This document shows positions 2,435-63,571 of a stretch of DNA of 64,000 nucleotides, piece by piece; within the stretch, counting starts at the first letter, position 1, and every line of letters begins with the position of its first letter. Where the stretch lies: assembly GCF_029688735.1 (NCBI RefSeq), contig NZ_JARULD010000004.1:62001-126000 (forward strand), written 5' to 3'. Under the pieces are notes generated by a model, which saw only the letters and a list, made by a program, of their open reading frames with translations, made no database searches and was not told the origin of the DNA. The stretch is from Qipengyuania flavescens (GTDB lineage Bacteria > Pseudomonadota > Alphaproteobacteria > Sphingomonadales > Sphingomonadaceae). Position numbers and translations under genes: made by a program.

Positions 2435-4096
2435 ATGATCGCCACCGAACCGCCTGCTGCCGCGAAGCTGCCGTCGCTCGATCGCCGGAGCGTGATCAAG
2501 GGTGGAGTGCTCGGCGCAGGCCTCGCCGGGATGCCGCTGGCCGCGCAGGTGCCCGGACGCGGCTTCACGCATGGGGTCGCAAGCGGCGAGCCTGCGGCGA
2601 ATGGCGTGTTGGTGTGGACTCGGTTCGTGGCTAATCAGGACACGCCGCTGACCTATGAGCTGTCGGAAAGCGCCGATTTCGGCAGTATCGCTGCGGGCGG
2701 CACGGTCACGGCCAGCGCGGATAACGACTGGTGCTGCAAGGCGACCGCGCGCGGCCTTGCCCCGGCACGCTTCTATTACTTCCGCTTCGTCGCGCCCGAC
2801 GGTTCGATGTCCGATGTCGGCCGCACGAAGACACTGCCCGAAGGCCCGACCGAGCGGTTCCGCATGGCGGTGTTCTCCTGCTCCAACATCGCCTTCGGCT
2901 GGTTCAACGCCTATGCCCATGCCGCCGATGCGAACGCCTTCGACTGCACGCTGCATTTGGGCGATTATTTCTATGAATACGGGCCCGGCACCTACCCCTC
3001 CGCCGACGAGGCCTTGTCCGGCCGTACGCTGTTCCCGGCGAAGGAGATCGTCAGTCTCGACGAATACCGCCGCCGCTATGCGCTCTATCGCAGCGACCCG
3101 GATCTGCGCCGCCTCCACCAGATGTATCCGATGATCAGCGGCTGGGACGATCACGAGAGCGCAAACGATTCGTGGGAAGGCGGCGCCCAGAACCACCAGC
3201 CCGATAGCGAGGGCGAATGGTCGGTCCGCAAGGCGGCGGCGATCAAGGCCTATCGCGAGTGGATGCCCGTCTCCGACGAGCCTTGGGCGGCTTACGAAAT
3301 CGGCGATCTCGCCACGCTGTTCCGCCTGGAAACGCGACTAACCGCGCGGGCGGAGCAGTTTTCCTATGGCGATATCCTGACCGGCCAGACCTCCGCCGAC
3401 GAGGCGTTGGCCGCGCTGACGGCCTTCCGCGAGGGCGACTATCGCGACGCTTCGCGCGAACTGCTCGGGGCGCGGCAGCAGGCGTGGCTGGCGGATGGCA
3501 TGCGGCGCTCCGCCGGGGCGGGCAAACCGTGGCAGGTGCTGGTGCAGCAGGTCCTGATGGGCAACCTCTCCACCGCGCCCGGCCTCACCGAGGGACTGCC
3601 GGGCGATTTGCCCGACTTCATTCGCCAGCGGATCCTGGCAGGCGCGATGGCTGGGCGGGCGGAACTGCCACTGAACATGGATGCGTGGGACGGCTACCCG
3701 GCCGCGCGGGAACGGCTGTTGAAATCCGCACTTGACGCGAATGCGAATCTGATCAGCCTCGCCGGCGATACGCACAATGCCTGGGCTTTCGATCTCGACC
3801 ACGCCGGGCAGCCGGTCGGCGTCGAATTCGGTGTGCAAGGCGTCACGTCGCCGGGGCTCGAAAGCTATCTGTCGTTCATTCCGAAAGACCGGCTGGAGCG
3901 CGCGATCGTCGATCACAATCCGCAGCTCCAATGGATGGATTCGGCGCGCCGCGGCTATATGGCGGTGGAACTCACGCCCGGCAGCGCGTCGAGCGAGTTT
4001 CGCTTCCTCTCCAGCGTGCGCGAGAAGGGCGCGGGCGTCTCCGCAACCCACCGCATGACCACATTGGCGGGCAGTCGCAGGCTGCAAGCGACTTGA
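2435..4096 (+). CDS. phoD: PhoD-family alkaline phosphatase/phosphodiesterase, Tat-exported
   Basis: A 553-residue protein of the PhoD/metallophosphatase type that releases phosphate from organic phosphate esters outside the cytoplasm. A twin-arginine signal (LDRRSVIKGGVLGAGLAG, residues 13-31) is followed by the N-terminal PhoD domain (GVASGEP...VWTRF) and the metal-binding phosphoesterase core (LHLGDYFYEYG, ISGWDDHESAND, ISLAGDTHNAW). Start: I chose ATG 2435 with GAGGAG 6 nt upstream; an in-frame ATG at 2327 also follows AGGAGG, but the codons between them show only about 55% G/C at third positions, unlike the rest of the gene. A Pho-box-like repeat lies just upstream. Confidence 0.9.
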   Translation: MIATEPPAAAKLPSLDRRSVIKGGVLGAGLAGMPLAAQVPGRGFTHGVASGEPAANGVLVWTRFVANQDTPLTYELSESADFGSIAAGGTVTASADNDWCCKATARGLAPARFYYFRFVAPDGSMSDVGRTKTLPEGPTERFRMAVFSCSNIAFGWFNAYAHAADANAFDCTLHLGDYFYEYGPGTYPSADEALSGRTLFPAKEIVSLDEYRRRYALYRSDPDLRRLHQMYPMISGWDDHESANDSWEGGAQNHQPDSEGEWSVRKAAAIKAYREWMPVSDEPWAAYEIGDLATLFRLETRLTARAEQFSYGDILTGQTSADEALAALTAFREGDYRDASRELLGARQQAWLADGMRRSAGAGKPWQVLVQQVLMGNLSTAPGLTEGLPGDLPDFIRQRILAGAMAGRAELPLNMDAWDGYPAARERLLKSALDANANLISLAGDTHNAWAFDLDHAGQPVGVEFGVQGVTSPGLESYLSFIPKDRLERAIVDHNPQLQWMDSARRGYMAVELTPGSASSEFRFLSSVREKGAGVSATHRMTTLAGSRRLQAT

Positions 4097-4121
4097 GAAG
4101 CGCAGGCTCTAGCGCTATCTG
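4093..4121 (+). promoter_or_regulatory. Predicted promoter of the thrS leader transcript
   Basis: TTGAGA (4093-4098) and TATCTG (4116-4121) are separated by exactly 17 nt, a good housekeeping-type promoter. The transcription start would fall about 7 nt after the -10, at 4128-4129, which is the A of the leader peptide ATG. No Shine-Dalgarno sequence precedes that ATG, consistent with a leaderless message. The -35 overlaps the PhoD stop codon. Confidence 0.5.
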
Positions 4122-4128
4122 CCCGGCC

Positions 4129-4200
4129 ATGACGCAACTGCGCTTCACCATCACGACTACCACCACCCCGGGTCTCCGGGGGCGGATGGTCGCGGCCTGA
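4129..4200 (+). CDS. Threonine-rich leader peptide of thrS (attenuator uORF)
   Basis: A 23-codon open frame, MTQLRFTITTTTTPGLRG..., in the 325-bp gap before thrS. Seven of 23 codons are threonine, including five in a row (codons 9-13: acg act acc acc acc) with one Ile at codon 8, the composition of the enterobacterial thrL leader (Thr/Ile). It ends at TGA 4198-4200. Its codons overlap strand 1 of a set of alternative hairpins, and the regulated gene downstream is threonyl-tRNA synthetase, so uncharged tRNA-Thr would stall ribosomes here. Translation is probably leaderless. The peptide itself is expected to have no function. Confidence 0.8.
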   Translation: MTQLRFTITTTTTPGLRGRMVAA

Positions 4201-4245
4201 CCGCAGCCACCGCCGCCCGGTTTCGGGTGGCGCGGCGTTCCTCTC
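4147..4245 (+). promoter_or_regulatory. Transcription attenuator of thrS (mutually exclusive hairpins)
   Basis: Three competing pairings are visible. 1:2, pause hairpin: ACCATC 4147-4152 with GATGGT 4185-4190, plus CCCCGG 4166-4171 with CCGGGG 4176-4181. 2:3, antiterminator: GGCGGATGG 4181-4189 with CCACCGCC 4207-4214 (one bulged A). 3:4, terminator: CGCCGCCCG 4211-4219 with CGGGTGGCG 4224-4232 (one G-U, loop GTTT), followed by GTTCCTCTC, a weak pyrimidine/T tract. Stalling at Thr codons 4153-4167 would mask strand 1 and favour 2:3, giving read-through into thrS; completion at the stop codon would favour 3:4. The poor T tract is the weak point; a translational variant is possible. Confidence 0.65.
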
Positions 4246-4274
4246 GAAATCGGTTCTTCGTCGGGGCGGCGCCA

Positions 4275-4338
4275 GCCCTCACCCCCTCCCGGCCACCCAC
4301 GGGATTATCCTATCGGGTGGCCGGGAGGGGGTGAGGGC
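4275..4338. repeat. Long perfect palindrome, REP-like, copy 1
   Basis: Two perfectly complementary 24-nt arms (4275-4298 and 4315-4338) flank a 16-nt loop. The arms contain the core CCCGGCCACCCACGG, which recurs at 63512-63526 in another long intergenic palindrome. No T tract follows on either strand, so it is not a standard terminator. It lies between the attenuator and thrS and will fold strongly in the thrS leader RNA. Confidence 0.85.
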
Positions 4339-4421
4339 CGGAACCGCCTCAAAACAAAAACGCCGCTTCAACGGTGCGCATGCCTGTGCCATGGGCCGCG
4401 CAAGGAAACGGACGAGATACG

Positions 4422-6443
4422 ATGACGGAACTGCTCAAAATCAGCCTGCCCGATGGTTCGGTGCGCGAAATGGAACCCGGCAGCACGCCCGGCGATGTCG
4501 CTGCCGCGATCGGCCCCGGCCTTGCCAAGGCCGCCATCGCCGCGCGCGTCGACGGTGAACTGCGCGACATCAACCGCCCGTTCGAGGGCGATGCCGAGCT
4601 CGCACTGGTCACGAGCCGCGACGAGGAAGACGCGCTCGAATTGGCGCGGCATGATTTCGCGCACGTCCTCGCCGAAGCGGTCCAGTCGCTCTATCCCGGC
4701 ACGCAGATCACCTTCGGCCCGGCGACGGACGACGGCTTCTATTACGACGTGAAAGCGCCCGCCGACCGCGAGCCGTTCAGCATGGACGACCTCCCCGACA
4801 TCGAGGAGGAGATGCGCCGCATCATCAAGGCCGACAAGCCGCTGCGCCGCGAAGTCTGGAGCCGCCAGCAGCTCATCGACAAATGGGAGGCCGAGGGCGA
4901 GATCTTCAAGGCCGAGTGGGCGAAGGAACTGCCCGAGAACGAGGAGCTGACGGTCTACTGGTCGGGCGAGGACTGGCTCGACATGTGCCGCGGGCCGCAT
5001 CTCGCCAGCACGGGCAAGCTCGATCCGCAGGCCTTCAAGCTGACGCGCGTCGCGGGTGCCTACTGGCGCGGCGACCAGAACAATCCGCAGCTCACGCGCA
5101 TCTACGGCACCGGCTGGCTCAACAAGAAGCAGCTCAACGCCCACCTCACGCGGTTGGAGGAAGCTGCCAAGCGCGACCACCGCAAGCTGGGCCGGGAGAT
5201 GGACCTCTTCCATTTGCAGGAAGAGGCGCATGGCAGCGTCTTCTGGCATCCCAAGGGCTATCGCATCTGGCGCGAGCTGGAGGCTTATATGCGCCGCAAG
5301 ATGGACAAGGCCGGCTATCGCGAGATCAAGACGCCGCAGCTTATGGACGTGCGCCAGTGGGAGCAGTCCGGCCACTGGGGCAAATATGCCGAGAACATGT
5401 TCGCCGTGCCCGACATGGTCCCAGAGGTTGAGGAGTTGGGCGATGGGCCGGCAAACCCCAGCGTCGCGCCCGATGCGGACTGGATGGCGATCAAGCCGAT
5501 GAACTGCCCGGCCCACGTGCTGGTCTTCAAGCAGGGCATCACCTCCTATCGCGACCTGCCGATCCGGCTGGGCGAGATGGGCTGCTGTCACCGCAACGAA
5601 CCGCATGGCGCGCTCCACGGGCTGATGCGCGTGCGCCAGTTCACGCAGGACGATGCGCATATTTTCTGCACGGAAAATCAGGTGGTCGAGGAAGTGAAGG
5701 CCTTCATCGAGCTGGCCGACCAGGTCTATCGCGACTTCGGTTTCACCTACGACGTCAAGCTCGCCCTGCGCCCCGAAAAGCGCTTCGGTTCGGACGAGGA
5801 CTGGGACACGGCGGAGCAGGAATTGCGCGATGCCGTCGCGGTCAGCGACATGCAGGGCGAAGGCGACGGCAAGCTCGAAGAACTGCCCGGCGAAGGCGCC
5901 TTCTATGCGCCCAAGCTCGAATGGCACCTCACCGACGCGATCGGCCGTACCTGGCAGGTCGGCACGATCCAGGGCGACCGCGTGCTGCCCGACCGCCTCG
6001 ATGCGAGCTATGTCGGCGAGGATGGCGAGAAGCACCGCCCGGTCATGCTCCACCGCGCGATCTTCGGCAGCTACGAACGCTTCATCGGCATCCTGATCGA
6101 GCATTTCGCGGGCCGTCTTCCGGTCTGGCTCGCGCCAGTGCAGGCGGTGGTCGCGACCATCGTCTCCGACGCCGACGATTATGCGAAGGAAGCGGTCGCC
6201 AGGCTGGAAGCCGCGGGCATCCGCGTCGAGAGCGATCTTCGCAACGAGAAGATCAATTACAAGGTGCGCGAACACAGCCACGCCAAGGTCCCGCACCTGC
6301 TGGTGGTCGGCAATCGCGAGGCCGAGGAAGGCACCGTTGCCATCCGCACGTTGGGCGAAAAGGAGCAGCGCGTGATGAGCCTCGACGAGGCGATCGCCAC
6401 GCTCAAGGCCGAGGCGACGCCGCCCGACTTGCGCGAGGGCTAG
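4422..6443 (+). CDS. thrS: Threonyl-tRNA synthetase
   Basis: A 673-residue class II synthetase that charges tRNA-Thr. In order: N-terminal TGS domain (residues 1-62), the editing domain with HDFAH (near residue 77) and CRGPH (near residue 189) zinc/editing motifs, the catalytic core with IKPMNCPAH (near 357), [12 protein letters not shown] and [14 protein letters not shown], and the C-terminal anticodon domain ([11 protein letters not shown] onwards). It is about 30 residues longer than the E. coli enzyme, mainly through an insert of about 20 residues near 332-352 ([20 protein letters not shown]). ATG 4422 is preceded by GGACGAG. Expression is predicted to be controlled by the threonine leader upstream. 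Confidence 0.97.
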
Positions 6444-63488: not shown

Positions 63489-63571
63489 GCTGTTCCATCC
63501 CGCTCCCCCACCCGGCCACCCACGGCACGGTATTTTATGGGTGGCCGGGTGGGGGAGCGGGACGGAACAGC
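63489..63571. repeat. Long palindrome, REP-like, copy 2
   Basis: Two 34-nt arms (63489-63522 and 63538-63571) are complementary except for one G-U pair, with a 15-nt loop. The arm contains CCCGGCCACCCACGG, shared with the palindrome at 4275. It fills most of the gap between the acyl-CoA dehydrogenase stop and the CaiB/BaiF start. Confidence 0.88.

Follow-up and report, generated by a model that had tools for sequence, protein, structure and literature searches.

How does Qipengyuania flavescens adjust the expression of its threonyl-tRNA synthetase gene, and does the small, threonine-rich reading frame in front of that gene take part? In the window, by which we mean the whole 64,000-nt stretch of DNA that was analyzed, thrS occupies positions 4422-6443 of the plus strand and encodes a protein of 673 amino acids with TGS, tRNA_SAD, class II core, and anticodon domains. 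The leader ORF can be read directly on the same strand at 4129-4200: it opens with an ATG at 4129, runs for 23 codons (MTQLRFTITTTTTPGLRGRMVAA), and ends with a TGA at 4198-4200. Threonine stands at codons 2, 7, and 9 to 13, and the first-pass annotation had thus correctly reported seven threonine codons, five of them consecutive. The run of five (ACG ACT ACC ACC ACC, 4153-4167, plus strand) would be the expected stall site, and none of 3,000 dinucleotide-keeping shuffles of 4097-4421 contained an ORF of 10 to 40 amino acids with five consecutive threonines. The gene upstream of the leader encodes a PhoD-like phosphatase, and its stop codon (4094-4096) lies inside a predicted promoter, P1. Judged by comparative sequence analysis, the arrangement is best read as a thrS attenuator of Sphingomonadaceae that would work by ribosome stalling and depend on Thr-tRNA. 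Such an attenuator would give the alphaproteobacteria, in which T-boxes are, to our knowledge, rare, an example, found across a family and open to testing, of a synthetase gene that responds to the charging of its own tRNA.

The RNA of this region can be divided into strands, all on the plus strand of the window. Strand 1 (CCACCCCGG, 4163-4171) was defined by alignment and folding, and strand 2, which consists of CCGGGGGCGG and an extension (4176-4195), by folding and permutation. Strand 3 is made up of an extension and CCGCCGCCCGG (4201-4220), of which 4210-4219 can also pair with strand 4, and strand 4 with its loop (GGTTTCGGGTGGCG, 4219-4232) has strand 3 as a partner or, through 4219-4227, a further strand 5. 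Pairing 1:2 joins 4163-4171 with 4176-4185 (-14.8 kcal/mol as a separate piece and -19.4 on a wider piece), pairing 2:3 joins 4176-4195 with 4201-4220 through 18 pairs (-34.4 kcal/mol as a separate piece), and pairing 3:4 joins 4210-4219 with 4224-4234 (-19.0 kcal/mol, likewise as a separate piece). The three are mutually exclusive and are placed so that a stalled ribosome would mask strand 1, as expected of an attenuator. The first-pass annotation had proposed three such pairings, and they do exist and exclude each other; its limits for 2:3, 4181-4214, were too narrow for a helix that extends over 4176-4220. As a whole, 4129-4256 has a fold energy that its composition would lead one to expect (z -1.2, with 35 of 300 shuffles folding at least as stably), and the case therefore rests on comparison between genomes.

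For this comparison, thrS loci were taken from 30 same-genus genomes (30 of 61, the window's own included) and from the best 80 of 590 named GTDB species. Of the 30 same-genus loci, 29 carry the threonine-rich ORF and, after it, the strand 2 motif, and among the best 80 of 590 named species the element is found in 23 of 75 loci from Sphingomonadaceae in the wide sense (with L066, whose 101 nt of upstream sequence are too short for a judgment, counted as negative) and in none of the five outgroup loci; four leader-positive loci were recognized by eye. Carriers are named Qipengyuania, Erythrobacter, Porphyrobacter, Croceicoccus, Altererythrobacter, Pelagerythrobacter, Parerythrobacter, and kin, joined by three of six loci labeled Novosphingobium and by single cases in Blastomonas, Sphingopyxis, and Sphingomonas. 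Leader presence requires 7 changes on a ThrS tree versus 20 in shuffles; this tree cannot separate gain from loss, and the detail that the elements share suggests one origin with several losses. The same-genus locus that stands apart, L037, is missing the leader and 3:4 and keeps the 3' arm of a helix P5 and a P2-like motif, both discussed below, and is thus a natural leader deletion. Another locus, from a MAG (L045), retains the Thr leader ORF together with strand 2 but has lost strands 3, 4, and 5.

From 110 loci (L009-L118), 48 with a Thr run found by script were thinned at 93% similarity to 37; L024, L044, L046, and L048 were added by eye, and L009, L010, L018 (palindrome), L045 (strands 3-5 deleted), and L102 were left out. 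The resulting 36 element sequences served to build a covariance model, which also permits annotation of the element. Searched at an E value of at most 0.01 against 298 genomes of the GTDB family, and with strict filters that lose weak matches, this model, which was itself derived from loci of this type, matched 107 of the 298 genomes, from 37 of 96 genera, at a total of 108 places. At 105 of the 108, all with E below 1e-3, both thrS and a Thr-rich leader ORF are present (98 ORFs from the main scan, that of L214, and those of six loci with an intervening ORF), and the conservation in related genomes that had been proposed as a check of the first-pass annotation is thereby borne out. The three matches without thrS (L224-L226, E 0.0015-0.009) have no Thr leader and, by eye, seem to be coding sequence. 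With these strict filters, 191 of the 298 family genomes gave no match; some of them may hold diverged forms, and their number implies that the device is dispensable. In a class set of 289 genomes, three family members were accompanied by four genomes from outside the family with weak matches (E 0.001-0.009), and an order set of 246 genomes gave a sole non-family match (E 0.007); the matches of these five outside genomes were taken as chance on their E values. G441, which belongs to the order set, was matched three times, at E values of 5e-12, 2e-4, and 0.008.

An alignment of 100 of the 105 thrS-linked loci, which omits L143 (the window) and L220-L223, shows what is conserved in the leader. 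Threonine is encoded at aligned codons 4 to 7, before strand 1, in 91, 95, 97, and 94 of the 100 loci, and at these codons the first and second positions have entropies of 0.1 to 0.4 bits and the third position one of 1.3 bits at three codons and 0.5 at the last. By this pattern the leader ORF is under selection for threonine, the peptide being what is selected, and the element thus comprises a short ORF that is rich in, and selected for, the cognate amino acid of the downstream gene. The number of threonines per leader has a median of 7 and a range of 4 to 13 (98 leaders). The codons ACC and ACT together make up 79% of the leader threonine codons versus 52% in the thrS parts of the same loci, and ACT alone makes up 24% versus 5%. 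Part of the third-position C may serve strand 1, while a third-position T would bring no gain in its G-C pairing. ACC and ACU are decoded by one tRNA-Thr, and the excess of these codons suggests that the run is read mainly by this tRNA.

An unsupervised two-block search of 96 distinct upstream regions returned the motif TTGA-N18-CTATNT, which in the window corresponds to the predicted P1, with an upstream hexamer ACTTGA (4091-4096, plus strand) that overlaps the stop codon of the PhoD-like gene and a -10 hexamer CTATCT (4115-4120, plus strand) that lies 8 nt before the leader ATG. The end of the -10 block is 7 to 10 nt from the leader ATG in 83 of the 96 regions; the spacing is off in 13, in 12 of which the -10 block lies at the ATG, apparently because our script chose an upstream in-frame ATG. 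Spacing of this kind would place the start of transcription at or beside the leader ATG, and the mRNA of the leader ORF is probably leaderless, as predicted from the promoter spacing. Pattern scans for promoters and terminators over positions 1-60000 of the window were uninformative. As a separate observation, the genome of Q. flavescens contains, about 240 nt upstream of a leuA-like match (L245), a short ORF (MQTALGLLLRLTRPWA) that begins a few bases after a -10-like CATAGT and has behind it an inverted repeat with no T tract; it could be a leaderless Leu leader of leuA, in the style of the Thr leader.

Downstream of hairpin 3:4, the supposed terminator, two more covarying helices appear that the first-pass annotation had overlooked. 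Strand 5 (CTCGAAATC, 4243-4251, plus strand) is complementary to 4219-4227 with two G-U pairs, giving helix 4:5, and a helix P5 is formed by a 5' arm, GGCGTT (4234-4239, plus strand), known from alignment and covariation, and a 3' arm, AACGCC (4359-4364, plus strand), known from the family alignment and read directly at its position in the window. RNAalifold unaided predicts 1:2, 3:4, and P5, and these three taken together exceed all 500 shuffles for paired cells, doubly changed cells, and covariation score in both alignments, of which the 100-locus one was fitted to the structure of the covariance model and so favors these very helices; slid versions of them drop to 38 to 56% paired cells. 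In the 100-locus alignment, 135 cells are doubly changed versus a shuffled mean of 46.6 (reached by none of 500 shuffles), 13 of 21 pairs are doubly changed versus 9.1 (reached by 5 of 500), and the pair types are matched by none of 500; in the 36-sequence alignment, the doubly changed pairs are reached by 21 and the pair types by 241 of 500. Pairing 2:3 varies hardly at all; it has three double changes, which none of 500 shuffles reach, and where it extends across the stop codon, the strands of one genome fit each other better than permuted strands do (0 of 2,000 permutations).

When independent changes are counted on the ThrS tree, the ratio of same to opposite is 20.8:0.8 for P5, 13.2:1.9 for 4:5, and 11.3:0.9 for 3:4, and for 1:2, of which two pairs were examined, the tree lends slight support (1.1:0.3 and 0.9:0.0). 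The covariation on which the first-pass annotation had staked its pairings is thus present, with 1:2 the weakest of the three. Helix 4:5 also stands out in the 36 sequences (reached by 2 of 500 shuffles for doubly changed pairs and by none for the other measures), and the strands of 4:5 and of P5 each outpair permuted ones (0 of 2,000 permutations). The tree control with slid partners was run for 4:5, which still scores 4.9 to 10.3 same versus 1.1 to 5.1 opposite when its partners are slid by one or two columns and is accordingly less secure than P5. On these alignments we regard P5 and 3:4 as firm and 4:5 as probable. Chance or an alignment artifact might be suspected, as high G+C RNA folds readily and the energy of the whole element is unremarkable, yet such an origin is barely conceivable in view of the codon-position pattern, the tree-controlled covariation, and the linkage to thrS across the family.

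The order of these parts has a bearing on what they might form. In the window, strand 4 reaches to 4227 and is followed by 6 nt, the P5 5' arm, 3 nt, strand 5, the rest of the P5 loop, and the P5 3' arm, an order as expected of an H-type pseudoknot, whose loops would be of sufficient length to span the grooves. Helices 4:5 and P5 together could form such a pseudoknot, which would compete with 3:4, since 3:4 and 4:5 both use strand 4. The P5 loop as aligned measures 21 to 43 nt in the 100 loci; the P5 arms of the window are 119 nt apart because a dispersed, near-perfect palindromic repeat (4265-4348, without assigned strand) has been inserted. This repeat is no part of the common element: it has 17 further sites in the Q. 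flavescens genome, one of them near position 63495 of the window, it sits in the P5 loop of L010 and L018 as well (L011 was judged by spacing), and it is absent in L012, L109, and others, L109 having a ThrS that is 96% identical while L018, with the repeat at the same spot, has one that is 91% identical. The aligned P5 loop contains 40% C and 16% G, with C exceeding G in 97 of 100 loci, and this richness in C is partly due to strand 5 itself.

How would transcription end in the OFF state? That the T tract after 3:4 is poor, which the first-pass annotation had named as the weak point of its proposal, is real and a property of the whole family: over the 18 nt that follow 3:4, 40 of the 100 loci have no T run longer than 1, while 38 reach 2, 17 reach 3, and 5 reach 4, the longest seen. 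The intrinsic terminator of a classical attenuator, a last hairpin with a U tract, is thus missing family-wide, and hairpin 3:4 was rejected in this role for want of a conserved U tract. The hairpin 4:5 was likewise rejected as the real terminator; some species have a T-rich stretch after it and others, such as L050 and L061 (by eye), do not, and its logic would reduce thrS expression under starvation.

A plain attenuator of the thrL or pheM type, in which 3:4 would be an intrinsic terminator with a poor U tract and 4:5 and P5 would only shape the readthrough transcript, is nevertheless a possibility to be weighed, if a doubtful one. The logic of strands 1 to 4 is classical, some members have two or three T's a few bases past the stem, and Streptomyces leader peptides with hairpins that lack a clear U tract have been reported (PMC8079986, as far as its accessible text goes). 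It has to contend with T runs of only 1 or 2 in 78 of the 100 loci and of 4 in just 5, and with the T's of the P5 arm, which switch to C together with their partners. Moreover, upstream of ilvB in the same genome there is, by eye, a hairpin with a run of seven T's, one of them in the stem. Z. mobilis is a sphingomonad too. Its intrinsic terminators are described as E. coli-like in the accessible part of one report, in which no more than roughly a third of the 3' ends of this species coincide with predicted intrinsic terminators (PMC7566282). Taken together, the missing U tract, the ilvB hairpin, and the terminators of Z. mobilis argue against ordinary intrinsic termination at 3:4, and the OFF step is probably something other than canonical intrinsic termination. 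A P5 loop rich in C and poor in G would suit Rho, although this is a guess.

Between P5 and thrS, 49 leader-positive loci (every second one) share a motif, CTTCNN-N15-TGCCAT, whose spacing is nearly always 15; in the window it reads CTTCAA-N15-TGCCAT (4366-4392, plus strand, by motif comparison). Put through the same procedure, 51 leader-negative loci gave a weaker, related pattern (TTGCC...AAGG). The nearly fixed spacing leads us to prefer a promoter or operator over an RNA hairpin, for which the flanks of the motif offer only a weak inverted repeat (z 2.7-3.0 in 83 loci), and we regard it as a putative second promoter of thrS, P2, with a protein operator being possible. The motif is unlike a standard -35/-10 pair and might represent a special promoter or operator.

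Translational control, in which the folds would regulate access to the ribosome binding site of thrS, or the RNA would be bound by ThrRS as in E. coli, seems improbable to us. Being situated beyond the supposed terminator, helices 4:5 and P5 would be useful only in a longer transcript, as this idea would have it, and the inverted repeat at the P2 flanks could also be counted in its favor. The start region of thrS, however, shows no excess of pairing with any of seven segments of the element over permuted ones (z -1.9 to 1.9), its best partner, the P5 5' arm with strand 5, being reached by 36 of 1,000 permutations, and sequestration of the ribosome binding site thus finds no support. Also against it, the hairpin loops show by eye no constant anticodon-like sequence, and in 6 of the 105 loci (L160, L162, L163 [182-748], L169, L171, and L179) another ORF stands between the element and thrS. 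A complementarity between CGTTTCCT and AGGAAACG was seen in the window's close kin and dropped, as it is lost in the other loci inspected by eye. The intervening ORF had no Pfam match in the one protein of the six loci that was tested; it is perhaps in one operon with thrS, and its look of a 3'-5' exonuclease is an impression only.

The P1 transcript might also, or mainly, yield a trans-acting small RNA or peptide, with thrS being transcribed from P2. We consider this unlikely, while noting that it is compatible with the other readings. A small ORF that is probably leaderless and a putative P2 would fit it, there is a precedent in rnTrpL and peTrpL of Sinorhizobium meliloti (PMC7298713, in its accessible text), and the residues after the Thr run are partly conserved, with [RP]GR in 74 of 98 leaders. 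The RGR, however, is encoded by strand 2 (CGG GGG CGG), and RNA pairing explains its conservation. Moreover, every match below 1e-3 in the family search is linked to thrS and only the three weaker ones are not; in the order set, G441 has a second match at 2e-4.

Our results lead us to consider with good confidence that ribosome stalling on the threonine codons switches RNA folds to control thrS, and the leader and its folds very probably serve to raise ThrRS production when charged tRNA-Thr is short. RNA polymerase would start at P1, and a ribosome would load onto the 5' AUG. At low Thr-tRNA, this ribosome would stall on the Thr run and cover strand 1, so that 2:3 forms, strand 4 is left free for strand 5, the pseudoknot closes, and polymerase proceeds into thrS. 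With ample Thr-tRNA, the ribosome would reach the stop codon and disrupt strand 2, allowing 3:4 to form, and with no translation at all, 1:2 and then 3:4 would form; in either case strand 5 would remain in an open, C-rich loop and transcription would stop before thrS. Since there is no conserved U tract, this end would probably be factor-assisted, most simply, we would guess, by Rho acting on the C-rich P5 loop, and the pseudoknot would then serve for antitermination. P2, downstream of the element, would supply basal thrS expression and could make the attenuator minor. This full scheme of an attenuator with pseudoknot antitermination and a noncanonical OFF step is the version we lean toward. 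More tentatively, we speculate that the element represents a distinct class of switch, in which the position of the ribosome on the Thr codons would decide between hairpin 3:4, exposing the C-rich loop to Rho, and an H-type pseudoknot of 4:5 and P5, hiding it, without an intrinsic terminator, and through which thrS would sense mainly the tRNA-Thr that reads ACC and ACU.

How, then, does the element compare with known systems? In E. coli, the thrL-thrABC and pheM-pheST systems combine a leader peptide rich in the cognate amino acid with the same 1:2, 2:3, and 3:4 logic, and pheM controls an aminoacyl-tRNA synthetase. The present element differs from both in having a Thr leader before thrS, an ORF that is probably leaderless, no U tract, and an added, putative pseudoknot. 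The first-pass annotation had called it a thrL-type attenuator, and of this the conserved Thr leader and the three competing pairings in front of a synthetase gene stand; that it is simply of this type does not, in view of the U tract absent across the family and the two additional helices. The Rfam family Thr_leader (RF00506) was not among 18 matches up to an E value of 10 at 4080-4430, and searches of the window and of 12 related loci against Rfam gave no match at or above a family's gathering score; a T-box riboswitch was found neither in these nor, up to an E value of 10, at 4080-4430. E. coli thrS, the same gene, is under autogenous translational control, with ThrRS binding tRNA-like hairpins at the start site, whereas for the sphingomonad element no coupling to the thrS start was seen.

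Among leaders described outside the enterobacteria, trpL of S. meliloti is likewise an attenuator from the alphaproteobacteria, and its transcript begins with the leader ATG, as is predicted here; it differs in responding to Trp, in preceding trpE(G), and in having a described hairpin terminator, with a pseudoknot unmentioned in the accessible text (PMC7298713). A small leader ORF before trpS is mentioned for Caulobacter in the part accessible of another report (PMC4117421). The LEU element of Actinobacteria, found before leuA, resembles ours, according to the accessible text, in that it places a leader ORF containing cognate codons beside an RNA with a conserved pseudoknot and a second, alternative structure (PMC1262725). 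A leader ORF with a conserved pseudoknot is what we find as well, the latter deduced from two covarying helices. In LEU the codon run is described, in the same text, as pairing with the Shine-Dalgarno box of leuA (PMC1262725), whereas here strand 1 pairs with strand 2, and the pairing tested against a LEU-type scheme fell below the permuted mean (z -1.9).

No thrS leader in sphingomonads or other alphaproteobacteria was found in the open literature that was searched, although Vitreschak et al. 2004 and Lopatovskaya et al. 2010, the latter reportedly on the attenuation of aminoacyl-tRNA operons, may hold related predictions. The first-pass annotation, which knew of no description, is thus right for sphingomonads as far as that literature goes, but a leaderless thrL before thrS has already been reported in Streptomyces lividans TK24 (PMC8079986, accessible text). 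It too is a Thr-dependent leader peptide without a U-rich stretch; as described there, it has 18 amino acids, two threonines, and one hairpin, and it belongs to another phylum. The Sphingomonadaceae element has 4 to 13 threonines and a covariation-supported four-strand logic with a probable pseudoknot. A leader-peptide attenuator that keeps its alternative folds without a U tract, beside two conserved helices that probably form a pseudoknot, could help to explain the terminator-less leader peptides that have been reported, in the accessible texts, from Actinobacteria (PMC1262725, PMC8079986).
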